Assembly: GCA_903827375.1 (NCBI GenBank)
Contig: CAIKHZ010000119.1
Location: forward strand, 1-39,445
Direction: 5' to 3'
Length of the DNA: 39,445 nt
From: Akkermansiaceae bacterium
GTDB lineage: Bacteria; Verrucomicrobiota; Verrucomicrobiia; Verrucomicrobiales; Akkermansiaceae
Below, piece after piece: positions 26,598 through 37,458 of this stretch (its first letter is position 1; the number at the start of each line of letters is the position of its first letter). The translations under genes were made by a program, and so were the position numbers. The notes beneath the pieces are model-generated. The model made no database searches. It had not been told where the DNA came from and saw only the letters and a list, made by a program, of their open reading frames with translations.

Positions 26598-26701
26598 ATG
26601 GGCGGATCACGCCTGGCTCGAAGCAGTTGACGGAAGGCCCCGGGGCTGCTGATATAGCTGCGAGCCAAGCTCAACCGAACCCAAGCATTTGCTCTCTTGC
26701 C

Positions 26702-28072
26702 ATGATCTTCCAATGCCCCCGCTGTGCCATGCAGCTCAAAGCCGGTCCTGAATTGGCCGGCCAACTTGTCCATTGCCCCGGTTGCAGCGCCCGTATGCAA
26801 ATCCCTAGCGACGTGCCCGCCGATGGCGACTCCCAACCCCAAACACCAAACGCTCCCACTAGCCGCGGCTCGGTGGGCGCGTTCCGCAGCGTCGAGCGCC
26901 GCGGCTGGAAGGAAACCGACCCGACGAATCCAAGGATGCTCGTCAGCTTCGGCCTTGGCCTCGCCATGGTGCTAATCTGGTTTTTCCTGCTGCTGCCCTT
27001 CAACCCCGGCAACCGGCCCGTCGATAGCTACACGCCCGTCCAGTGGCTGGCAGCCCTGTTTTTCAAGCATTTGGTGGTCAGCTCGCTCAACTGCACGTTC
27101 TTCTGTTGGGCCATGGCCATCCTCTATCTTAAATTTAAAAAGCTGCGCCATCAAAAGAGCGCACTGCTGCTAGACGTGTTACCGATGCGTCTGGGCAAAG
27201 AGATCAACGTCAGCAACGTCGCCCAGTTCATCGACCACGTGTACCGCCTGCCACGAAAATTGCGCGACAGCCTGATGGTCAACCGCATCCGCAAGGGCCT
27301 CGAATTGTTTGAAATACGTGCTAACAATGCCGAGGTCGCCAAAATGATGGCCAATCAATCAGATATCGACAGCGCTCGCATCGGCGGCAGCTACACCCTG
27401 CCGCGGGCCTTCCTCTGGGCCATCCCCTTGCTCGGCTTCATCGGCACAGTGCTCGGCCTCTCTCAAGCGATCGGCGGAATGAACTTCGCCAACGTCGAGG
27501 ACGTCGCCAAAATCGTCACCTCTATCAACAATGTCACCAGCGGACTGGGCACCGCATTCGATGCAACATTGTTAGGTCTGGTGCTCGCCATGATTTTAAA
27601 TTTTCCGCTCAATTCACTGGCCAAGCAGGAGGACGACAACCTCAACGAGATTGACGCGTTTTGCAATGAGGTGCTGATGTTGCGGCTCAACGACGGCAGC
27701 GGAGCGGGCGGCGGAGATACAGCAGCGGTGGCGGACGCAGTGGTGGCAGCGCTTGCTGGCGGCCAAGCGGCATTTCTGAGCGATTTGAATGAATTGTCGC
27801 GCCGAATGAATGAGTACGCCACCACTTTGGACGGCCGGATGGCTGCCTTCCAACAATCCGTCACTGACGAATTCGTCACTAAGACTCATGCCATGCGCGA
27901 GCAGTCCCAAGCGTCGATCAAGGAGTCCATGGTCGAGGTATCCAACTACCTCGCCGGGCTAGCCAGCGGCATTAACAGCCTCAACGAAGTGCTCAAACAA
28001 CTCGGCACCAAATCCATTGTCATCGGGCCACCGCCCCCCAAGCGCCGCTGGTTCCGCCGCGGTGGCGCATAA
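26702..28072 (+). CDS. MotA/TolQ/ExbB proton-channel protein with N-terminal zinc ribbon
   Basis: A 456-residue membrane protein. Residues 1-30 form a zinc ribbon (Cys5, Cys8, Cys25 and Cys28 in CPRC and CPGC). Transmembrane helices lie at about 80-99 and 117-144, and the conserved channel core has helices at about 236-259 (AIPLLGFIGTVLGLSQAIGG) and 281-302 (LGTAFDATLLGLVLAMILNFP). The core matches ExbB/TolQ/MotA, which form pentameric ion channels around a two-helix plug. A helical tail of about 120 residues and a basic C-terminus (PPPKRRWFRRGG) follow. Start at 26702 because the ribbon begins there. It is followed by two ExbD-like genes, which form the likely complex. Confidence 0.85.
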   Translation: MIFQCPRCAMQLKAGPELAGQLVHCPGCSARMQIPSDVPADGDSQPQTPNAPTSRGSVGAFRSVERRGWKETDPTNPRMLVSFGLGLAMVLIWFFLLLPFNPGNRPVDSYTPVQWLAALFFKHLVVSSLNCTFFCWAMAILYLKFKKLRHQKSALLLDVLPMRLGKEINVSNVAQFIDHVYRLPRKLRDSLMVNRIRKGLELFEIRANNAEVAKMMANQSDIDSARIGGSYTLPRAFLWAIPLLGFIGTVLGLSQAIGGMNFANVEDVAKIVTSINNVTSGLGTAFDATLLGLVLAMILNFPLNSLAKQEDDNLNEIDAFCNEVLMLRLNDGSGAGGGDTAAVADAVVAALAGGQAAFLSDLNELSRRMNEYATTLDGRMAAFQQSVTDEFVTKTHAMREQSQASIKESMVEVSNYLAGLASGINSLNEVLKQLGTKSIVIGPPPPKRRWFRRGGA

Positions 28073-28105
28073 CATCGGAAGTCACTTTCCCCCACTGTTG
28101 CGAAT

Positions 28106-28921
28106 ATGGCGAAAAGGCGAGAAGGCAACCGCGACGAGGTCATGTTGATCCCGTTTCTGGATATCCTGTGTTCTCTCATCGGCGTGCTCATCCTCATCAT
28201 CGTGGTCCTCTGCGTCGCTCAAACCCAGCAGGCAACCGGACGAAGCGCCGCAGACCTTGCACGAGCCCAGCAACACCGCAGCTTGCTCAAAACCCACCAG
28301 GAATGCCTGCTGGAGGACGCCGCACTGCGAGCCCAACTTGCCGCCGCCAAGCAAGTCCAGGCCGAAATGCAGGAAAAAGAACAGCAACTCACCGCGTTGC
28401 GCCAACACAGCGAGCTGACCGGCGAGGCCGCCACAGCCCTCGCCGAGCGGCTCCGCAAGCAACGCGACACCTTGGCCGCTCAGGTTCTCGCCAACCAACG
28501 CGAAATGCCAGAAGTCCAAACGCAAATCGAGCAACTCAAGAAGCAGCTGGAGCAGCGCAACATCAAGCCCGACACTCATGCCCTGCCCATCGCCATCCGC
28601 CCATCCGGTGGAGGATTCTCCACCCACCACGAATACTTCTTCATCGAACTGAGCGGCAACACGCTCGTCGTCTATAAATCCAAAACCGAAAAACTGCGCA
28701 TTCCCGCCGCCAATGTTGGCAGTGACGCTGCTCTTGATGCGTTCCTAACTAAGCTACGGGCCACACCTGGTGCCGCGTTGGTCTTCCTGTTGCGCGACGA
28801 TGGCTGGCCTAACTACAATCGGGCGGCAGGCTATGCCGAAAGCCGCTTTGGCCTGCTCACTTCGAAACTGCCGCTGCCGGGCACTGGCGAAATCGACCTC
28901 GGACTCTTCAACAACCCATAA
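28106..28921 (+). CDS. ExbD/TolR-like protein with coiled coil (first)
   Basis: A 271-residue protein with one N-terminal transmembrane helix (about 13-38). It contains the ExbD-type Asp in IPFLDILCSLIGVLI (Asp19), the residue that carries protons in ExbD/TolR/MotB. A long coiled coil (about 50-155, rich in Gln, Glu, Ala and Leu) precedes a C-terminal alpha/beta domain (about 165-271; FFIELSGNTLVVY and GAALVFLLRDDG). This is longer than ordinary ExbD (about 140), and no OmpA-type peptidoglycan-binding motif is seen. It is 33 bp after the channel gene and 23 bp before a second paralogue. Confidence 0.8.
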   Translation: MAKRREGNRDEVMLIPFLDILCSLIGVLILIIVVLCVAQTQQATGRSAADLARAQQHRSLLKTHQECLLEDAALRAQLAAAKQVQAEMQEKEQQLTALRQHSELTGEAATALAERLRKQRDTLAAQVLANQREMPEVQTQIEQLKKQLEQRNIKPDTHALPIAIRPSGGGFSTHHEYFFIELSGNTLVVYKSKTEKLRIPAANVGSDAALDAFLTKLRATPGAALVFLLRDDGWPNYNRAAGYAESRFGLLTSKLPLPGTGEIDLGLFNNP

Positions 28922-28944
28922 CCCACAACCTCCCTACCCCAGCC

Positions 28945-30078
28945 ATGGCCAAACGCAGATCTGGCGGAGCCGCCGAACTCCCGTTCGTCGCACTCATGGA
29001 CACCATGACCAATGTCGTCGGGGTTCTAACCATCGTGTTGGTGATGATCGGCATCAGCCTCGCCAAGGCCGTTAGAAAAGTTCTCTCCGAGTTGCCGCCC
29101 GTCAGCATCGAACAGGTCCAAGCCGCCCAAACCCAACTCGAGCAGGCCAACGCCGCGAGGGAAGCTGTGCGCAGTGAGCTCGCTGTCGTCAAGCGCGACC
29201 CACACAGTGATGCAAAACTAAACACCGATATGTTAGCGGAACTCGCCAGCCTCGAACTCACCGTCAAGAACAAGCCGCTGCCGCCGGTTGATATAGATTC
29301 CTTGCGCGCCGAGGTGGCCAAGATCGAAGCCGAACTCAAGGCAAAAACCACCGAAGCCCAGCAATTGGCGGTCGAGCGCCAGCGCCTCTCCGAGTTGTTG
29401 GAAAAAACACCGCTGGTTAAGGCACCCCTCCGAAAAATCGTTAGAATGCCGGAGGCTCGGGACATTCCCACCAGCGCTGATATCTATTATGCCTATGTGA
29501 TAGGCAACCAAATCCATTTACTCGACCCCATTTCCGCGAAAAAGATGGTGATGGATGAATTCCATCAGCAAAGCGCAAAATTCATCCAACAAACGATTAA
29601 GCTCAAACGCGGCAAAACCCATATCATTTACGACCAAGCCAAGGTGGTCGAGCATTTCGGCAAACTCAACCTGAACGTGCGAGGCCAGAAGATCACGGTG
29701 CCGGCCAACCGCACAGGAACCCAACTGGCATTGCATATCGCCATTGATCCCGCGCAAGGCGGAGTGACCATTACCGATCCTCTGGCAGCCAATAGCGAAT
29801 GGCAACGAATCTGTGATCGCTTGCACTGGTTGCCTCGCGCGGTGTTGATGTTCCGGGTGCGCCCGGATGCCTTTGCCACCTACCTGCGGGCCCGCGAACT
29901 CGCCGATTCCATGCGCCTGCCCTGCGGCTGGGAAATCGAGGGCGGCACCACCTTCGACGTCGCCCTCGACGAGTTCGAGGTCAACCGCCTCGAAAACCCA
30001 CCGCCGCCCCCTCCACCCCAACCAAATGTCCCGCAGAGGCCGCCCGAGCCCCCTCCACCCAAGCGACGACTCGACTGA
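28945..30078 (+). CDS. ExbD/TolR-like protein with coiled coil and Pro-rich tail (second)
   Basis: A 377-residue partner protein. The N-terminal helix (about 12-40) has PFVALMDTMTNVVGVLTIVL with Asp19 in the ExbD position. A coiled coil (about 55-160) is followed by a globular domain (about 170-350; DIYYAYVIGNQIHLLDPIS, AVLMFRVRPDAFATYLRARE). The tail is a Pro-rich basic segment with PPPPPPPQPNVPQRPPEPPP. It shares architecture but little sequence with the preceding protein, so the motor may use a heteromeric rod of two different ExbD-like subunits. No TonB or OmpA-domain gene is adjacent. It ends 69 bp before the terpenoid-type operon. Confidence 0.8.
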   Translation: MAKRRSGGAAELPFVALMDTMTNVVGVLTIVLVMIGISLAKAVRKVLSELPPVSIEQVQAAQTQLEQANAAREAVRSELAVVKRDPHSDAKLNTDMLAELASLELTVKNKPLPPVDIDSLRAEVAKIEAELKAKTTEAQQLAVERQRLSELLEKTPLVKAPLRKIVRMPEARDIPTSADIYYAYVIGNQIHLLDPISAKKMVMDEFHQQSAKFIQQTIKLKRGKTHIIYDQAKVVEHFGKLNLNVRGQKITVPANRTGTQLALHIAIDPAQGGVTITDPLAANSEWQRICDRLHWLPRAVLMFRVRPDAFATYLRARELADSMRLPCGWEIEGGTTFDVALDEFEVNRLENPPPPPPPQPNVPQRPPEPPPPKRRLD

Positions 30079-30147: not shown

Positions 30148-30612
30148 ATGGAATTCGTCAACTTCAAACACGCCCGCTTCGCTGCCCGCTTGCCCGCCTC
30201 CTACCGCTACTCCAGGTCGCATTACTGGATGGCGCCAGTAGCGGACGCAGCCGGCGAGTGGCGGGTGGGCTTCACGAAATTTGCGACGCGCATGCTCGGG
30301 GAGCTGGTGGAGGCCGAATTCAGCGTCAAGCCCGGTGAAGTGATCAGTCCGGGCCAGGAGATTGGCTGGGTTGAAGGCTTCAAGGCCACCAGCGATGTGT
30401 TTTCGGTCATGGCAGGGACGTTTGCGGGGAAAAACCCGATCCTTGACAGGGATGCCTGCATCGTCCGCTCCGATCCCTACCGCGACGGCTGGCTTTATGC
30501 CGTGCGCGGCGAACCGGAAGATGAAAGTTTCGACGTCATGAGCTACGTTGAATGGCTTCAACAAACGATCGGCCGAATGCAGGCGCACGAGGAAGACGGA
30601 TTGCAAATTTAA
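30148..30612 (+). CDS. Orphan GcvH-like lipoyl-carrier protein
   Basis: A 154-residue protein with the H-protein fold. VGFTKFATRMLGELVEAEF matches the conserved GIT.YA...LG.. entry, and EIGWVEGFKATSDVFSVMAG holds the swinging-arm lysine (Lys79) in the position lipoylated in GcvH. NPILDRDACIVRSDPYRDGWLYAV matches the C-terminal DPYG.GWL segment. Glycine cleavage GcvT and GcvP are absent from the window. The extra N-terminal 25 and C-terminal 25 residues are unlike ordinary GcvH (about 125-130). Placed first in an iron-sulfur/terpenoid operon, it may be a dedicated lipoyl carrier. A weak TTGCCG-16-TAGGTT promoter-like pair lies at 30105-30132. Confidence 0.85.
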   Translation: MEFVNFKHARFAARLPASYRYSRSHYWMAPVADAAGEWRVGFTKFATRMLGELVEAEFSVKPGEVISPGQEIGWVEGFKATSDVFSVMAGTFAGKNPILDRDACIVRSDPYRDGWLYAVRGEPEDESFDVMSYVEWLQQTIGRMQAHEEDGLQI

Positions 30613-30635: not shown

Positions 30636-30776
30636 ATGCAAGCCCGCTACATCATGATCGGTGGATTCCTCGAATCCAGAAAAACCACCGTCGTCCGCAA
30701 ATTCGCCCGTCGCCTCAATGCGCAGGGCCTGAAGGTCGGCCTCATCACCGCTTCACCCCATTCCCTCATTTTATGA
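30636..30776 (+). pseudogene. Truncated P47K/CobW-type (G3E) GTPase relic, 46 codons
   Basis: ATG at 30636 opens a frame ending TGA at 30774-30776. Residues 1-38 look like the start of a COG0523/P47K G3E GTPase: MQARYIMIGGFLESRKTT, then a helix and GLKVGLIT. The usual P-loop GGFLGxGKTT has become GGFLESRKTT, losing the two Gly that hold phosphate. After residue 39 the homology stops and the frame ends, whereas real members have 300 or more residues. Most of the gene therefore seems deleted. Its last codons overlap the start of the radical SAM gene (ATGA), so the stub could still couple translation. Confidence 0.65.
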
Positions 30777-31999
30777 TCGCTCAATACGCCGCCCATCTCC
30801 TCACCAGCACCGATAAAAGGCACCTGCTTAAGTTCGCATGGAACTTCGGCGTCAAAGGCATGCGGTCCGTCCATCTTCACAAAAAACGCCTCCGCAAGGG
30901 TGTCTTTTTCCCACCGTTCCTTTACCTTTCTATCATCAATTCCTGCAACCTCCGCTGTCAGGGGTGCTGGGTCGATGTCGATAAACCCGAAACTAAAATC
31001 GATTTTAACCAACTCAACCGTGTGGTCAACGAGGCCAAGGCGCATGGCAATTCATTCTTCGGCATCCTCGGCGGCGAACCGTTCATGCACGACGAACTCT
31101 TCGACTTCCTCGCCCAACACCCGGATTGCGCCTTCCAGATTTTTACCAACGGCCAGCTCATCACCGAAAAGAAAGCCAAACAACTCCGCGCACTCGGCAA
31201 TGCCTCCCCGCTCGTCAGCATCGAGGGCTCAGAGGTCGTCAGCGACGAACGCCGCGGCAAGACTAACGTGCTCTCCCACACGCTGCGCGGCCTCGACCAC
31301 TGCCTCCAACAAAAACTCCTCACCGGCGTCGCCACCAGCCTCTGCCAAACCAATATCGATGACCTGCTCACCGAGTCCTGGCTGCGTTCACTCATCGCCC
31401 GTGGCGTCCACTATGCGTGGTACCATACATACCGACCGGTTGGGCCTAAGATTCATCCTGAGCTAGCGTTGACGCCTGAGCAGACGCTGCGGACGCGGCG
31501 ATTTGTGGTTGAGATGCGATCCAAGCTACCGATAGCGCTGATAGACGCGTACTATGACCATCGTGGGCAGGCGCTCTGTCCGATGGCGACGGGCATCAGT
31601 CACCATGTATCACCGGGAGGGGCGATCGAGCCATGTCCGATCATTCAGTTTGCAACGGACCGGATCGACGACAAGCGTGGCATTTATGAAACGATGACCT
31701 CCTCGGCCTTCCTCCGGGATTTCCGCGAGACTGCGGCGCGCCACACCCGCGGCTGCATCGTGCTGGAGCGACCCGATCTGGTGAAGGCGCTCGCCGAAAA
31801 GCACGGTGCCAGCGACACCACGATCCGGCAAACCGCCATCGCCGAGCTTAACAGCATGGAGCCGCGCAGCAGCCAGCATCTTCCGGGCCAGGAGGTTCCG
31901 GAGAAGAACTGGATGTACTGGCTGGCGAAGAAGTATTTTTTCAACGACTTCGGGGCCTATGCAAAGCTTGCTGAAGATGCCTCAAAACCCAAAGTATAG
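30773..31999 (+). CDS. Radical SAM enzyme of the terpenoid-type operon
   Basis: A 408-residue radical SAM protein. The cluster motif is CNLRCQGCW (Cys58, Cys62, Cys65), followed by GILGGEPFMH (GGEP at 100-103, SAM binding), FQIFTNGQLI and LVSIEGSEVVSDERRGK. Three later Cys (269, 288 and 328, in ALCPMATG, IEPCPII and RGCIV) suggest an auxiliary cluster, though not a canonical SPASM set. It starts in the ATGA overlap with the GTPase relic and ends 7 bp before the next gene. The reaction is unknown; carbon-skeleton modification of a lipid is inferred only from context. An internal stretch at about 31430-31680 uses different synonymous codons (ATA, CTA, GCG) from its flanks. Confidence 0.88.
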   Translation: MIAQYAAHLLTSTDKRHLLKFAWNFGVKGMRSVHLHKKRLRKGVFFPPFLYLSIINSCNLRCQGCWVDVDKPETKIDFNQLNRVVNEAKAHGNSFFGILGGEPFMHDELFDFLAQHPDCAFQIFTNGQLITEKKAKQLRALGNASPLVSIEGSEVVSDERRGKTNVLSHTLRGLDHCLQQKLLTGVATSLCQTNIDDLLTESWLRSLIARGVHYAWYHTYRPVGPKIHPELALTPEQTLRTRRFVVEMRSKLPIALIDAYYDHRGQALCPMATGISHHVSPGGAIEPCPIIQFATDRIDDKRGIYETMTSSAFLRDFRETAARHTRGCIVLERPDLVKALAEKHGASDTTIRQTAIAELNSMEPRSSQHLPGQEVPEKNWMYWLAKKYFFNDFGAYAKLAEDASKPKV

Positions 32000-32006
32000 C
32001 CAACGG

Positions 32007-32300
32007 ATGTCCCACACTCTGTACTGCCGCTGCGCCTACGCCCAGGTCATTTCGGGACCGGTGAAAAATGCCCGGCTTGAACAACTCTGCGCCTCGGGCG
32101 AAGAGTTTGAGGCCGTCCCCGATCTTTGTGAGATGGCCGCCGCCCGCGATCCCCGTCTCGCCGAACTGGCGCACAAGGACGATCTGCGGATCATCGCCTG
32201 CCACCCCCGCGCTGTGAAGGGGCTTTTCGCCCAGGCCGGGTGCCCGTTGCCGCCTACCGCTGAAATCGTCAACATGCATGAAGCCCTGCCAGCTTCTTGA
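32007..32300 (+). CDS. Small Cys-rich protein (97 aa), redox-module candidate
   Basis: A 97-residue soluble protein with six Cys: CRC (Cys7, Cys9), Cys28, Cys41, Cys65 in IIACHPRAVKGLF, and Cys79. The start MSHTLYCRCAYAQV places a Cys pair at the N-terminus. The spacing does not match a standard ferredoxin; the IIACHPRAV segment after a strand suggests a small alpha/beta fold. It sits between the radical SAM gene and the ferredoxin gene with gaps of 7 and 13 bp, so it is probably part of the same electron-transfer or sulfur-handling module. No family name can be given with certainty. Confidence 0.75.
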   Translation: MSHTLYCRCAYAQVISGPVKNARLEQLCASGEEFEAVPDLCEMAAARDPRLAELAHKDDLRIIACHPRAVKGLFAQAGCPLPPTAEIVNMHEALPAS

Positions 32301-32313
32301 CACCAAGCCAACC

Positions 32314-32994
32314 ATGCCTGCCAACGCCTCAGAAATTGCCGCCCTCCTGGATTCTGGAAATGCCGTCACGGTGTCCGCCGACGGCTACCGGGCAAGGCAC
32401 ACCGGAAACACGCCGCCCGCTGCCGCCGGAGCCTCCACCACAACCGCGACACGATCCTGGAAGCCATGGTTTCCGGTGATCGACTACGACCGCTGCACCA
32501 ACTGCATGCAGTGCCTCAGTTTCTGCCTATTCGATGTTTACAACGTCGATGAGAACTCCCTCATCGAGGTCCGCAACCAAGAGAACTGCAAAACCAACTG
32601 CCCGGCATGTTCCCGGGTCTGCCCGGAAGTTGCCATCATGTTCCCAAAATACTCTGGCAGTCCGATCAACGGCGAGCCGGTCAACGCGAGCGACCTGTCC
32701 CGCGAGAAAATGAAAGTCAATGTCTCGTCGCTACTGGGCGGCGACATCTACTCGACCCTGCGCAATCGCTCGGATCAAGCGAAGTCACGCTTCTCCACAG
32801 AACGCAGCGCGGACAAGGCCCTCGCCGAACGCAAGCGCTGCCTCGACAAACTGCAGCGCGACGGATTTATCCCAGCCGAAGTATTGGCCGAAATTGATCT
32901 CACCAATCTTCCCTCGCCTGAAGAAATCCAGCGTCGCGCCGCCGCGGCATCCGCCAAAGCACAAGCCGCGCTAGCCGCAAACGCCGCGAAATAG
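32314..32994 (+). CDS. 2x[4Fe-4S] ferredoxin-type protein
   Basis: A 226-residue protein. The first cluster motif is CTNCMQCLSFC (Cys61, 64, 67, 71) in WFPVIDYDRCTNCMQC; the second is CKTNCPACSRVCP (Cys92, 96, 99, 103), whose first spacing is CxxxC rather than CxxC. A sequence after Pro104 (EVAIMFPKYSGSPINGEPVN) is followed by about 100 residues of charged helix ending Ala-rich. The N-terminal 50 residues are low-complexity with some helix. It likely passes low-potential electrons to the radical SAM enzyme or to the DUF116 domain. ATG at 32314 was chosen over 32278, which would overlap the previous gene. Confidence 0.87.
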   Translation: MPANASEIAALLDSGNAVTVSADGYRARHTGNTPPAAAGASTTTATRSWKPWFPVIDYDRCTNCMQCLSFCLFDVYNVDENSLIEVRNQENCKTNCPACSRVCPEVAIMFPKYSGSPINGEPVNASDLSREKMKVNVSSLLGGDIYSTLRNRSDQAKSRFSTERSADKALAERKRCLDKLQRDGFIPAEVLAEIDLTNLPSPEEIQRRAAAASAKAQAALAANAAK

Positions 32995-33012: not shown

Positions 33013-34764
33013 ATGTACAATCTCGAAGCCCTCCGCATTCCCAAGCTCATCTCGGCCACCACCACATGGTTTCGTCCGCCGAAGAAAAACATACCTCAGA
33101 CGAAACCTGCCCGAGACTCCGTCAGAGCCCATATTCGCGCCTACATCGAACGTGAAAAACCGGTGCCACCGATGCCCTTGGAAGTGCTGGAGGTGCATGC
33201 CCGCCAAATCCTCGCAGAGGCAAACATCGAGGAAACCTACCTCCACTACACGGCCGTCTGCCTCAACAACGAGATGTGGAGCGAGACTCTGGCCAGCATT
33301 CCCTACGAGCGCCGCTTACTGCTCATGCCGAAGTGCCTGCGCGTCGAGGATAAATGCCCGGCTCCCTTTGATGAACTCGGATTGTTGTGCAAACAGTGCG
33401 GCCTCTGCACCATCCAGGATTTCCAGAACGAGGCCGAGCGACTCGGCTACGCAGTGCTCGTCGCCGAGGGCTCGGCCGTGGTGATGTCACTGATCCAGAC
33501 CGGTAAAATCGAGGCAATCGTCGGCATTTCCTGCCTGTCTGTTCTTGAGCGCACCTTCCCTTACGTCGAAGCTGCGGCCATTCCCTCCATTGCGGTGCCA
33601 CTCCTCCAAGACGATTGCATCAATACCACCGTCGATATCGACTGGGTCTGGGACTATATCCATCTGAGCTCCGACGATAAAACCCGCCGCCTCAATCTCA
33701 ACGCCCTCCACGACGACGTGGCCGAGTGGTTCTCCGCCGACTCACTGGCGGAAATCATGGGGCCGCCTGCAGGTCGGCAGGAGGAAATCGCCCGTGACTG
33801 GCTGGCCCTTGCCGGCAAACGCTGGCGCCCGTTCCTCACCGTCGCCGCGTTCCAAGCCCTGCGCGACGATCGCAGCGAACCCATCCCCGAGGATCTGAAA
33901 AAAGTAGCGGTCGCGGTTGAGTGTTTCCACAAGGCCTCACTCATCCACGATGACATCGAGGACGACGACGACGGCCGCTATGATCAACCGACTTTGCATG
34001 CACGGGAGGGCATTGCGGTGGCACTCAATGCGGGCGATCTTCTCATCGGCGAGGGCTACAGACTGCTCGGGGAATGCAACGCCGACGCCGCCCACAAAGT
34101 TGAAATGTTGTTAGTCGCGGCCCACGGTCAGCGCGAATTGTGTCGGGGCCAAGGAGCTGAACTCATCTGGGCCAAACATCCGGCACTGCTCAAGACAGCC
34201 GACGTCCTCGAAATCTTCCGCCAAAAAACTGCGCCGGCTTTCGAGGTGGCACTCAAACTTGGCGCCAGCTACGCCGGTAAGCTCCCGGCCGTCGCTGACG
34301 TCATCGCCTCTTACTCCCAAAACCTCGGTATCGCCTATCAAATCCGCGACGACATGAACGATCTCGCCGCCGACGCCGGTGCGAACCAAGGGCAGAAGAT
34401 GCGACCTTCGGTGATGCTCGCGGTGGCACACGACCGGGCCCGCGGTGACGGCAGGGCCCTGCTGGAGTCGCTCTGGCATCATGAGCCACTCGCCGCCGAT
34501 ACCTCGGAGCAAATCCGCCATCTCGTGCATGCCGTGAAAGCCGACGAAAAGTGCCTGCTGCTCCTTGAGAGCTACAAGGATCAGGCGATCAAGGCCTTGG
34601 GAGACCTCGATAACGCCACCCTCAAAGGCCTGCTGCGGAGGGTCATCGGCAAAATCTTCAACGATTTGGTCATCAAGGGCTGGTGCCATGAATTTGAGGA
34701 ACAACACAGCAAGACCCGGGATCAACCGGACCCGGCCAGCTTCGCAGAATTAGCTGCCAGTTAG
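33013..34764 (+). CDS. DUF116-polyprenyl diphosphate synthase fusion
   Basis: A 583-residue two-domain protein. The DUF116 domain (about 95-215) has Cys108, Cys115, Cys126, Cys129 and Cys132 (MPKCLRVEDKC, LLCKQCGLC), plus Cys174 and Cys202, probably for an iron-sulfur cluster. The C-terminal trans-isoprenyl diphosphate synthase domain (about 255-570) shows AGKRWRPFL (267-275), the first Asp-rich motif DDIED (313-317) and the second DDMND (446-450). It should condense IPP with an allylic diphosphate; the residues before the first motif (CFHKASLIH) do not let me fix chain length. Most polyprenyl synthases are about 300-350 residues, so the fusion is notable. The next gene starts 4 bp after its stop. 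Confidence 0.9.
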   Translation: MYNLEALRIPKLISATTTWFRPPKKNIPQTKPARDSVRAHIRAYIEREKPVPPMPLEVLEVHARQILAEANIEETYLHYTAVCLNNEMWSETLASIPYERRLLLMPKCLRVEDKCPAPFDELGLLCKQCGLCTIQDFQNEAERLGYAVLVAEGSAVVMSLIQTGKIEAIVGISCLSVLERTFPYVEAAAIPSIAVPLLQDDCINTTVDIDWVWDYIHLSSDDKTRRLNLNALHDDVAEWFSADSLAEIMGPPAGRQEEIARDWLALAGKRWRPFLTVAAFQALRDDRSEPIPEDLKKVAVAVECFHKASLIHDDIEDDDDGRYDQPTLHAREGIAVALNAGDLLIGEGYRLLGECNADAAHKVEMLLVAAHGQRELCRGQGAELIWAKHPALLKTADVLEIFRQKTAPAFEVALKLGASYAGKLPAVADVIASYSQNLGIAYQIRDDMNDLAADAGANQGQKMRPSVMLAVAHDRARGDGRALLESLWHHEPLAADTSEQIRHLVHAVKADEKCLLLLESYKDQAIKALGDLDNATLKGLLRRVIGKIFNDLVIKGWCHEFEEQHSKTRDQPDPASFAELAAS

Positions 34765-34768
34765 AAAA

Positions 34769-35647
34769 ATGTCCCTGCGTCTCGAAATGCTCCAGGTGGC
34801 GCGGCTAGGGCCAGGAATGCTCGGACCCGCAGCCGACTTGGTCGCATCGTTCGTCTGCTCGCAACAGAATCCGGACGGGGGCTTTCGCGATCGTTCCGGT
34901 CGGTCGGATCTTTACTACACGTCATTCGGAGTTGATGCGCTTATGGCGCTGCGCTTGGAGGTTCCCGCAACCTTGGCGGGCTATCTGCTTCCGCACGATC
35001 CGGCGCAACTGGATTTCGTCCATGCGGCCTGCCTAGCCCGCTTGTTTTCCGCTATTCCGGGGAAAGTCGGACAAGCGGCCATTGACGCCGCGCTTGGCCG
35101 TTTAGAGAATTTTCGTTCGCCGGATGGCGGCTACAACCAGCAACCGGGAGCGGCGGCGGGCTCGTGTTATGCCTGCTTTCTCGCTTATGGGGCGTATGCG
35201 GATCACGGTCGGCAGCCGCCGCAGCCGGGCGGCATCAAGGATTGTTTGCGGAGCCTCTACCAACCCGACGGCGGATGGGCCAATGATTCCTCTTTCCCAG
35301 TCTCCAACGTGCCTGCCACGGCAGCCGCTGTCGCCATTTCTAAAAACCTGCGGCTGCCAATCGTCTCCACAACTTCCGATTTCCTTCTCAGCGCGTTTCA
35401 TCCACCATCCGGCGGATTCGTTCCGTTTCCTGGAGGTCCTCTGCCCGATCTCTTGAACACTGCGGTTGCGCTCCATGCCCTCGACGGTCTGCAAACCGAC
35501 TTTTCCGTCATCAAAGACTCCTGCCTCGACTTCGTTGACACGCTCTGGACGGCGGAAGGCGGCTTCCACGGCCACTGGGACGACGACACCCTGGACTTGG
35601 AATACACCTATTACGGGCTGCTCGCACTGGGCCACTTGGCATTGTAA
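34769..35647 (+). CDS. Small prenyltransferase/squalene-oxidase-repeat protein
   Basis: A 292-residue alpha/alpha-barrel protein with about five QW/PFTB repeats: QQNPDGGFRDRSG (about 32-44), RSPDGGYNQQPG, YQPDGGWAND, HPPSGGFVPFPGG and TAEGGFHGHWDDD. It ends LDLEYTYYGLLALGHL, like protein prenyltransferase beta subunits. The Zn ligands of those enzymes (Asp, Cys and a His in an HTYY-like motif) are not all apparent; Glu-Tyr replaces the expected His. It has no DxDD motif, so it is not an obvious class II cyclase. It may bind the prenyl substrate or act with the larger cyclase 14 bp downstream. Confidence 0.85.
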   Translation: MSLRLEMLQVARLGPGMLGPAADLVASFVCSQQNPDGGFRDRSGRSDLYYTSFGVDALMALRLEVPATLAGYLLPHDPAQLDFVHAACLARLFSAIPGKVGQAAIDAALGRLENFRSPDGGYNQQPGAAAGSCYACFLAYGAYADHGRQPPQPGGIKDCLRSLYQPDGGWANDSSFPVSNVPATAAAVAISKNLRLPIVSTTSDFLLSAFHPPSGGFVPFPGGPLPDLLNTAVALHALDGLQTDFSVIKDSCLDFVDTLWTAEGGFHGHWDDDTLDLEYTYYGLLALGHLAL

Positions 35648-35661
35648 CACCCCGCAGCCCA

Positions 35662-37458
35662 GTGATCGCAAATTTCGACCCCTTCCTCGCGAACGCTCAA
35701 GCCGCGCTGATCGCGGAGTTGGTGGATGATTCCCACTGGGAGGGCCAACTCTCGTCCTCCGCGCTTTCCACCGCCACCGCCATCATCGCACTTCACACCG
35801 TCGCTGCCGGAGCCCACGCGGAACACATCGCCGCCGGTGCAGCGTGGCTGCAGCAACACCAAAACCCGGATGGCGGCTGGGGTGACACGACCGATTCGTT
35901 TTCGAATATCTCAACAACCCTGCTCTGCCGCGCTGCCCTTGCGCTTGTGGCCAGCGACGGTGCCACCAAGGACCGAGCCGATCAATGGATCGCCAACTAC
36001 TGCGGCTCAGGCTCGCCGGACGATATCACGGCTGCAGTGGTTGCCCGCTACGGCAGGGATCGCACGTTCTCCGTTCCCATTCTGATGGCCTGTGCAATCG
36101 CGGGCCGACTCGGCAATACCATGCAGGAAAACTGGCGCCGCGTCCTGCCGCTGCCCTTCGAACTCGCCGCCTTTCCCCGATCCTGGTTCGGTGCCCTGAG
36201 GATGCCCGTCGTTAGCTACGCATTGCCAGCCCTGATCGCCATCGGCTACGCCCGCTTCGTTCATATCCCGCCACGATTTCCTGCCAGTCGCTATCGCAAA
36301 GCCCTCTGGCCCAGGGTGTCCGCCCTGCTCGACCGGATCCAACCGCCAAACGGCGGCTTTCTGGAGGCCACCCCACTGACGAGCTTCGTGACGATGGCGC
36401 TGGCGTCCGCTGGCCAGGCGCAACACCCGGTGGTGGCTCGCTCGGTCGGCTTCCTGCAGCGCTCGATGCGACCCGACGGATCGTGGCCCATCGATAGCAA
36501 CCTCGCGACTTGGACGACGACCCTGGCGATCAAGGCCCTTGGGGATTTTTCCGGGCTCGATCCATTGCGCCGAGACAAGATCCGTCGCTGGCTACTCAAT
36601 CAGCAGTATCATGAACGCCACATCTATACCGATGCTCCAAGCGGCGGCTGGGCGTGGTCCGACCTGCCGGGCGCTGTGCCCGATGCGGATGACACGCCGG
36701 GGGCGCTGCTCGCGCTGCACCTGCTGCACGACGAAGCATCGCACGCCGAATCAACCGCCGCTGCGGAGCGAGGCGTCGAGTGGCTGTTGAACATTCAGAA
36801 TCGCGATGGCGGCATTCCGACATTTTGCCGGGGTTGGGGCACACTGCCGTTTGACCGCTCGAGCCCTGATCTAACAGCCCACACCCTGCGTGCTTGGAAG
36901 GCCTGGCTACCAGACCTCAGCCTCCCCTTGCAGCAGCGCGTGGGGCGGCAGACGGTCTCCGCCTTGGAGTATCTAAAACGCGTGCAGCAAGCCGACGGCT
37001 CCTGGCATCCACTCTGGTTCGGAAACCAGCACCGCTCAGACGAGGCCAACCCCACCTACGGCACCACACAAGTTCTGCGTGCTTTGCTGCCGCTGGGGGA
37101 TTTCCCCCGCGAGGGCACCGGACGCGGCATAACATGGCTGCTAGATCATCAAAATCCGGACGGAGGCTGGGGAGCGGGCGAGGGCTCGCCATCTTCCATC
37201 GAGGAAACCGCGCTCGCTCTCGATGCACTCGCCGAAGCCCCCGGCGATGCCGGAGCCGTGCTCCAACGCGGCATCGCATGGCTCACCGCAGCGACCGACC
37301 ATGGCACCCGTTTTCCCAGCACCCCGATCGGATTTTACTTCGCCAAACTCTGGTATCATGAACGACTCTATCCAATCATTTGGACCGTCTCCGCATTGCG
37401 CCGGATCAAAGCTCGGACGAATCGTCGCGCTTCTGCAATTGAATCAACTTCTTCTTGA
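35662..37458 (+). CDS. Squalene-hopene-cyclase-like class II terpene cyclase
   Basis: A 598-residue protein of the SHC superfamily. The class II acid motif is PDADDTPGALLAL with Asp341, Asp343 and Asp344 (DxDDT), preceded by GGWAWSDLPG as in SHC. QW-type repeats include QQHQNPDGGWGDT (65-76), RPDGSW, QNRDGGIPTFCRGWGTLPFD, QQADGSW and DHQNPDGGWGAGE. The N-terminus has SSSALSTATAIIAL. It is close to SHC in length (about 630) but diverged, so the substrate need not be squalene. Class II cyclases protonate a polyene end and build fused rings. GTG at 35662 is the only suitable start. Its 3' end overlaps a small convergent gene by 53 bp. Confidence 0.87.
   Translation: MIANFDPFLANAQAALIAELVDDSHWEGQLSSSALSTATAIIALHTVAAGAHAEHIAAGAAWLQQHQNPDGGWGDTTDSFSNISTTLLCRAALALVASDGATKDRADQWIANYCGSGSPDDITAAVVARYGRDRTFSVPILMACAIAGRLGNTMQENWRRVLPLPFELAAFPRSWFGALRMPVVSYALPALIAIGYARFVHIPPRFPASRYRKALWPRVSALLDRIQPPNGGFLEATPLTSFVTMALASAGQAQHPVVARSVGFLQRSMRPDGSWPIDSNLATWTTTLAIKALGDFSGLDPLRRDKIRRWLLNQQYHERHIYTDAPSGGWAWSDLPGAVPDADDTPGALLALHLLHDEASHAESTAAAERGVEWLLNIQNRDGGIPTFCRGWGTLPFDRSSPDLTAHTLRAWKAWLPDLSLPLQQRVGRQTVSALEYLKRVQQADGSWHPLWFGNQHRSDEANPTYGTTQVLRALLPLGDFPREGTGRGITWLLDHQNPDGGWGAGEGSPSSIEETALALDALAEAPGDAGAVLQRGIAWLTAATDHGTRFPSTPIGFYFAKLWYHERLYPIIWTVSALRRIKARTNRRASAIESTSS

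Follow-up and report, generated by a model that had tools for sequence, protein, structure and literature searches.

A protein in which a DUF116 domain is joined to a polyprenyl synthetase has already been mentioned, namely Psta_0175 of Pirellula staleyi (Makarova et al. 2015, PMC5898192). The section of that paper dealing with DUF116 describes at least six conserved cysteines, archaeal gene neighbours such as components of sulfite/nitrite reductases and, for some bacteria, a fusion with polyprenyl synthetase; electron transfer was judged the best fit, and a flavodoxin-like fold was proposed. Compared by description, the fusion studied here has the same two-domain architecture as Psta_0175; however, a gene cluster, a cyclase, a radical SAM partner and an altered IPP site are not mentioned in the section. 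With the trans-isoprenyl diphosphate synthases (FPP, GGPP and octaprenyl, PF00348) our fusion shares the fold, both Asp-rich motifs and the Arg, Lys and Gln of the allylic site, but it differs from them in having another residue for the second Arg of RR, in carrying DUF116 and in being clustered with a class II cyclase. The trans-IDS-like prenyltransferases ComQ, ChrPC, PalQ and Ord1 again have the same fold, and set a precedent both for acceptors other than IPP and for a link with cyclisation, Ord1 being a tryptophan farnesyltransferase and ChrPC coupling prenyl transfer with cyclisation (PMC13290415). In the relevant part of that source no Fe-S domain is described for them, and in contrast to them the fusion family keeps most IPP contacts. 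Squalene-hopene and other class II cyclases resemble the 598-aa protein of the cluster in the DxDD acid, and this protein matches SHC profiles and 1GSZ, but with 97.5 bits it falls far short of the curated cut-off for hopene cyclases (431 bits), has a half-size toroid alongside and occurs in hosts of which 34 out of 45 have no detected squalene source. A full-text search of the openly licensed literature found no report of the gene cluster of the fusion. As far as this literature was searched, the cluster is new, as are the co-occurrence with cyclase and radical SAM genes where squalene synthase is often absent, the altered IPP site, and the presence of IspH and CrtI genes near unfused DUF116.

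The window, by which we mean the whole stretch of 39,445 nucleotides that was analysed, carries the fusion on the forward strand at 33013..34764, exactly where the earlier note had placed a DUF116/polyprenyl synthase fusion. It is a single open reading frame of 583 aa, from the ATG at 33013 to the stop at 34764, and both domains were recovered by Pfam: DUF116 (PF01976) at residues 65-215 (E 1.5e-35, 122.4 bits against a cut-off of 25) and polyprenyl_synt (PF00348) at residues 258-457 (E 1.7e-41, 142.5 bits against a cut-off of 27). Conservation, a full-length AF2 model and PDB fold matches agree with this assignment. By profile search, the genome of the window has one DUF116 match and three polyprenyl_synt matches.

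The fusion lies within a run of genes on the same strand, in the order GcvH-like, radical SAM, small CxC, ferredoxin-like, fusion, half-toroid and cyclase. The GcvH-like gene (30148..30612; PF01597, E 5.9e-17) has a lysine at the lipoyl position. It is followed by a radical SAM gene (30773..31999, by Pfam, with the start inferred from homologues) and by a gene for a small protein with a CxC and two more invariant Cys (32007..32300, start inferred), for which no Pfam match was obtained and of which 14 homologues adjoin fusions. A two-cluster ferredoxin-like protein identified by Pfam (32278..32994) ends 18 bp upstream of the fusion. A half-size alpha/alpha-toroid protein of 292 aa (34769..35647; Prenyltrans, PF00432, 41.3 bits against a cut-off of 26.5) begins 4 bp downstream; a search of PDB sequences gave no match to it at E 0.01. 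The squalene-hopene-cyclase-like class II cyclase (35662..37458), assigned by Pfam, by its DADDT motif and by co-occurrence, completes the run. Upstream of the cluster, at 26627-30078, are a MotA/ExbB-like protein and then two proteins of unknown family; among the best 80 of 535 relatives, only the near-identical locus L002 has this trio next to the fusion.

To describe the distribution of the fusion we used two samples. A scan of genome contigs for relatives gave 535 stretches encoding one, of which the best 80 were kept; these have Verrucomicrobiota-type titles, match most of the query and show 61-97% identity in the best segment. The second sample was 240 genomes of the phylum, each at least 80% complete, and our genome searches were confined to this phylum; the DUF116 genes of M. 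jannaschii and M. acetivorans were control hits in the DUF116 search. DUF116 was present in 53 of the 240 genomes, and 45 of these, including that of the window, were classed as fused, the other eight having short frames only. Two rows were left unfetched before counting, G094 with a DUF116 match of 58 positions and G383 below the cut-off. All 45 fused genomes have a single frame with both domains, cut at the contig end in G205 and G218, and one of the best 80 of 535 relatives (L036) has the frame broken late, into 513 and 80 aa. In an unrooted DUF116 tree of nine unfused rows and a thinned set of 31 fused ones, two rows being long-branched, fused and unfused domains fall on opposite sides of one branch with a support of 100/100. 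This fits a single fusion event, and altogether an old fusion, conserved and under selection, is supported. A tblastn search of plasmids with the fusion found no record covering 80% of the query, the 40 of 85 matches listed hitting mainly the prenyl part.

The DUF116 domain (33205..33657) was assigned by Pfam and by alignment. The earlier note had counted seven cysteines in the first 202 residues of the protein, and there are actually eight (83, 108, 115, 126, 129, 132, 174 and 202), five of them within 25 residues as it had claimed (108-132). Cys83 is variable, being present in 29 of 112 fused rows of a first alignment, and the other seven are invariant in all 112 fused and all nine unfused rows of that alignment and again in the 126 fused rows of a larger one. 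DUF116 probably carries an Fe-S cluster and would act as an electron-transfer module. The earlier note took the Fe-S domain to act on, or to sense for, prenyl diphosphate formation; electron transfer for a radical SAM enzyme or for another redox step fits the neighbouring genes better. A PDB sequence search with DUF116 gave no relative even at E 10, and the AF2 model of DUF116 alone was weak (pLDDT 63, Cys loop below 50) and had no match among PDB folds at E 0.001. In the full-length model, residues 82-177 form alternating strands and helices at low confidence; a flavodoxin-like fold is what the DUF116 section of PMC5898192 suggests.

An operon-like cluster of ferredoxin, radical SAM, fusion, half-size alpha/alpha toroid and DxDD squalene-hopene-cyclase-like genes occurs in many lineages. 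Among the 120 loci first examined (the 80 best of 535 plus 40 others, with nine of the 120 unfused), partners were nearby in 39; these comprised ferredoxin-like genes in 33 loci, radical SAM in 29, the half-toroid in 26, the cyclase in 18, a G3E GTPase in nine and a GcvH-like gene in eight. Partners were also found in 10 of 13 further fused loci. The DADDT sequence of the cyclase, which is the DxDD proton-donor motif, is kept by all but one of the 18 relatives aligned (17 of 18), and the one without it is truncated. In the radical SAM protein the CxxxCxxC cysteines (C59, C63 and C66) are conserved in at least 95% of cases over 27 relatives and three invariant C-terminal cysteines are kept besides; the protein scores below the cut-off of every one of the 25 NCBIfam models listed out of 45.

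Several other genes lie in or beside the cluster. The GcvH-like protein, with its lipoyl-position lysine (K79) invariant over nine relatives, sits inside the terpenoid cluster in the window (30148-30612). Nine cluster loci (e.g. L024:6343-7464 and L039:4850-6022) contain a CobW/G3E GTPase in which a CFCC stretch is invariant, and seven of these loci also have a GcvH-like gene. BamB/PQQ-like propellers, an NHL protein, a probably anchored ferredoxin and a NapH-like membrane 4Fe-4S protein adjoin the cluster in L117:2059-7103, L124, L148 and L213-L216. Relatives of the BamB-like propeller occur in 20 of 49 cluster loci, compared with 2 of 75 loci with the fusion alone and none of 27 unfused loci. 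The probably membrane-anchored 4Fe-4S protein and the membrane 4Fe-4S protein were each found in 13 of the 49 cluster loci and in none of the other 102. A glycosyltransferase beside the cluster is rarer (5/49 versus 1/75 and 0/27, respectively). The propeller, 4Fe-4S and glycosyltransferase neighbours may be parts of the system or lineage hitchhikers.

We then considered whole genomes rather than gene neighbourhoods. Across the 240 genomes, with thresholds of E 1e-20 for the cyclase and E 1e-60 for the radical SAM protein, the cyclase was found in 44 of the 45 fused genomes versus one of the 195 others, and the radical SAM protein in 41 of 45 versus none of 195. The sole non-fused genome with a cyclase is G139 (175-aa frame), in which only an unfused DUF116 is present. 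At the same thresholds, the radical SAM protein was not detected in the fused genomes G114, G124, G209 and G218, nor the cyclase in G213. Counted by family, the cyclase is present in all 21 fused families and the radical SAM protein in 19. The Fisher values for this co-occurrence are extreme, but because of kinship among the genomes the counts are not independent and the values are no true probabilities. We also took 34 genomes picked mainly for a lone fusion, five of which bear the cluster (those of L024, L039 and L040, plus G191 and G230); the radical SAM gene was found in 32 of them and the cyclase in all 34, once as a 78-aa fragment. Prosthecobacter-like loci, considered as a case of the fusion without the pathway, were rejected as such, as the partners sit elsewhere in the genome.

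Squalene/phytoene synthases (PF00494) were found in 11 of the 45 fused genomes versus 47 of the 195 others, and therefore have no association with the fusion. Since none was found by PF00494 in the other 34 fused genomes, where a distant homologue or an assembly gap is possible in single cases, the cyclase probably acts as a rule on something other than squalene, and squalene as a general substrate is disfavoured. It could still serve in the 11 fused genomes that have such a synthase, the genome of the window included.

The polyprenyl synthetase domain lies at 33784..34455. The basic residues that bind IPP (K, R, H/Q and the second R of the RR pair) were assigned after FPP synthase structures, in which the second Arg of RR is a contact to the diphosphate of IPP. 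The earlier note had described a complete trans-prenyl synthase with both Asp-rich motifs. Both motifs, HDDIED and DDMND, are present and nearly invariant, and the allylic-site residues are kept; the description as complete is only partly right, because one IPP-contact Arg is lost across the family. In the 126-row alignment of fused proteins, from which L212 with its broken frame was left out, D313, D314 and D317 of the first motif, R322, R272, H306 and Ala308 are invariant. K405 of the KT pair (405-406) and Q443 are found in 123 of 123 ungapped rows, D446 and D447 of the second motif in 122 of 123 each, and K269 is kept in 115 of 126 rows. At the second position of the RR pair (Tyr323 here) there are 121 Tyr, four Asp, one Asn and no Arg, and the basic set of the trans-isoprenyl diphosphate synthases is accordingly incomplete. 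The RR pair is intact in both other polyprenyl synthases of the window's genome.

In the relevant passage of PMC7484799 a single Arg change abolishes GGPP synthase activity, and by our mapping this Arg corresponds to R272, which is kept in the fusion family. Given that R272 and most other IPP contacts are kept and the second Arg is lost, the IPP site is altered yet mostly intact. Product length is commonly set by the residue five positions ahead of the first Asp motif, with small residues typical of GGPP synthases, according to the passage concerned in PMC6214179; if the domain is an elongating one, the Ala found there points to a product of C20 or more. The domain matches the PF00348 profile and has an all-helical fold. 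The full-length AF2 model, built with 47 sequences, has a mean pLDDT of 76.5, with a confident prenyl domain and a poor Cys loop, and its top Foldseek matches in the PDB are GGPP synthases (TM to target 0.80-0.85), with Ord1 ranked third.

Taken together, we propose that the fusion serves as prenyl-handling enzyme in a dedicated, uncharacterised and redox-dependent terpenoid pathway that scattered lineages of the phylum possess, with DUF116 as its Fe-S electron-transfer module, a reading for which we consider the chances to be evenly balanced. The C-terminal domain would ionise an allylic prenyl diphosphate, of C20 or longer judging by the small residue before the first Asp motif, and couple the ionised chain either with IPP or with some other acceptor. 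Protonation by the cyclase, possibly aided by its half-toroid partner, would then cyclise the chain. The Fe-S cluster of DUF116 would relay electrons, which would probably come from the cluster ferredoxin and go either to the radical SAM enzyme or into a step that reduces the prenyl product; the fusion would hold this electron transfer close to where the chain is formed. If this is true, isoprenoid redox chemistry becomes an area of function for DUF116, a bacterial and archaeal family of unknown function, and a conserved terpenoid pathway exists that searches based on squalene or carotenoid genes would miss.

A sharper version of this reading, overlapping it in part and favoured only tentatively, is that the domain does not elongate chains but is a trans-IDS-like prenyltransferase. 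It would put an existing prenyl diphosphate on a hypothetical acceptor other than IPP, such as a peptide or small molecule that the radical SAM protein makes or activates, followed by class II cyclisation as in meroterpenoid pathways. The replacement of the second RR Arg in every row while the allylic-site residues are kept points this way, as does the presence of two canonical RR synthases in the same genome. The rank of Ord1 among the fold matches and the coupling of transfer to cyclisation by ChrPC are consistent with it (PMC13290415, in the part concerned). In insects, losses in the IPP-binding motifs mark IDS-derived terpene synthases (PMC10962984); however, in the insect terpene synthase described there, 12 of 15 IPP-contact residues are lost, whereas K269 is mostly and R272 and H306 are always retained in the fusion family. 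Moreover, canonical GGPP synthases equal Ord1 by fold and beat it by sequence. Extending this idea, one may imagine an undescribed, phylum-wide pathway of meroterpenoid type, in which a radical SAM protein, together with its ferredoxin and with DUF116 as electron relay, would make or activate an unusual acceptor, the Tyr-for-Arg enzyme would attach a chain of C20 or longer to this acceptor and not to IPP, and the DxDD cyclase and half-toroid would cyclise it; some lineages might pass the product to the neighbouring membrane electron-transfer chain. As a whole, we regard this scheme as speculative and rather unlikely.

It is also doubtful, in our opinion, that the fusion is an ordinary dedicated GGPP or polyprenyl synthase, with DUF116 as a structural appendage or as a regulatory, redox-sensing one that switches chain synthesis. 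The catalytic Asp residues, R322, K405 and Q443 are intact, which is in its favour, and the position that commonly sets product length is Ala in all 126 rows, a small residue of the kind typical of GGPP synthases (PMC6214179). On the other hand, the Cys set is as strict as in unfused DUF116 and ferredoxin and radical SAM genes are present in the cluster, which indicates redox chemistry rather than sensing.

Unfused forms of DUF116 also have isoprenoid genes nearby. Short-frame copies from 213 genomes of the class of G003 were added to the earlier nine, giving 27 unfused loci, with L211 and L212 counted as fused. IspH-like genes are present in the fetched flanks of 13 of these loci, divergent in all 13 (about 3.5-4 kb away in L198 and L200); the 13 loci represent seven families, with seven loci from one family. 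The IspH copy of L130 passes TIGR00216, and the remaining copies were called by similarity to it. CrtI-type desaturases, three of which pass TIGR02734, are near nine of the 27, and one or the other gene is near 18. The arrangement of unfused DUF116 divergent to IspH, often with CrtI and sometimes with an aldehyde dehydrogenase, is seen in L130:8643-10096, L194, L195, L202, L209 and eight more. Six of the nine loci without an isoprenoid neighbour end near the gene (L193, L197, L203, L204, L206 and L208). No radical SAM, ferredoxin or cyclase partner was found at the 27 unfused loci. The IspH and CrtI genes beside unfused DUF116 support an isoprenoid setting for both forms of DUF116, the unfused one included.

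The divergent IspH genes at 13 of the 27 unfused loci might suggest that DUF116 replaces or serves IspH, the fusion making IPP/DMAPP (or feeding electrons to IspH) and using the product on the spot, but this is very improbable. One fused genome, G205, does have IspG with no detected IspH or HMG-CoA reductase, which may be an assembly gap in this genome of 1030 contigs. IspG was absent from 13 of 29 genomes tested, all 13 with HMG-CoA reductase; 11 of the 13 are fused, out of 27 fused genomes tested, and the fusion is thus found alongside either route to the precursors. IspH itself is present in 13 of 20 fused genomes tested, and six of the seven without it also have no IspG. For the fused clade, a substitute for IspH is thus disfavoured by the genomes with HMG-CoA reductase and no IspG, with G205 as an exception. 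The IspG match is split into two halves within frames of 620-760 aa in G000:C94, G066:C2 and G004:C559, a long form with an insert; in most other genomes the match is single and its frame about 360-420 aa long.

Finally, the earlier note had raised the case of separate genes elsewhere and a stop lost here by sequencing error; we give practically no weight to such an artefact, or to one of assembly, because the best 80 of 535 relatives and all 45 fused genomes share the joined frame and the 100/100 branch separates fused from unfused DUF116. The fusion is also present in two named isolates, Verrucomicrobium sp. BvORR106 (L045) and Brevifollis gellanilyticus (L079). The genomes of both (G248 and G258) have the radical SAM and cyclase genes as well, and the product and the cluster are therefore directly testable in them.
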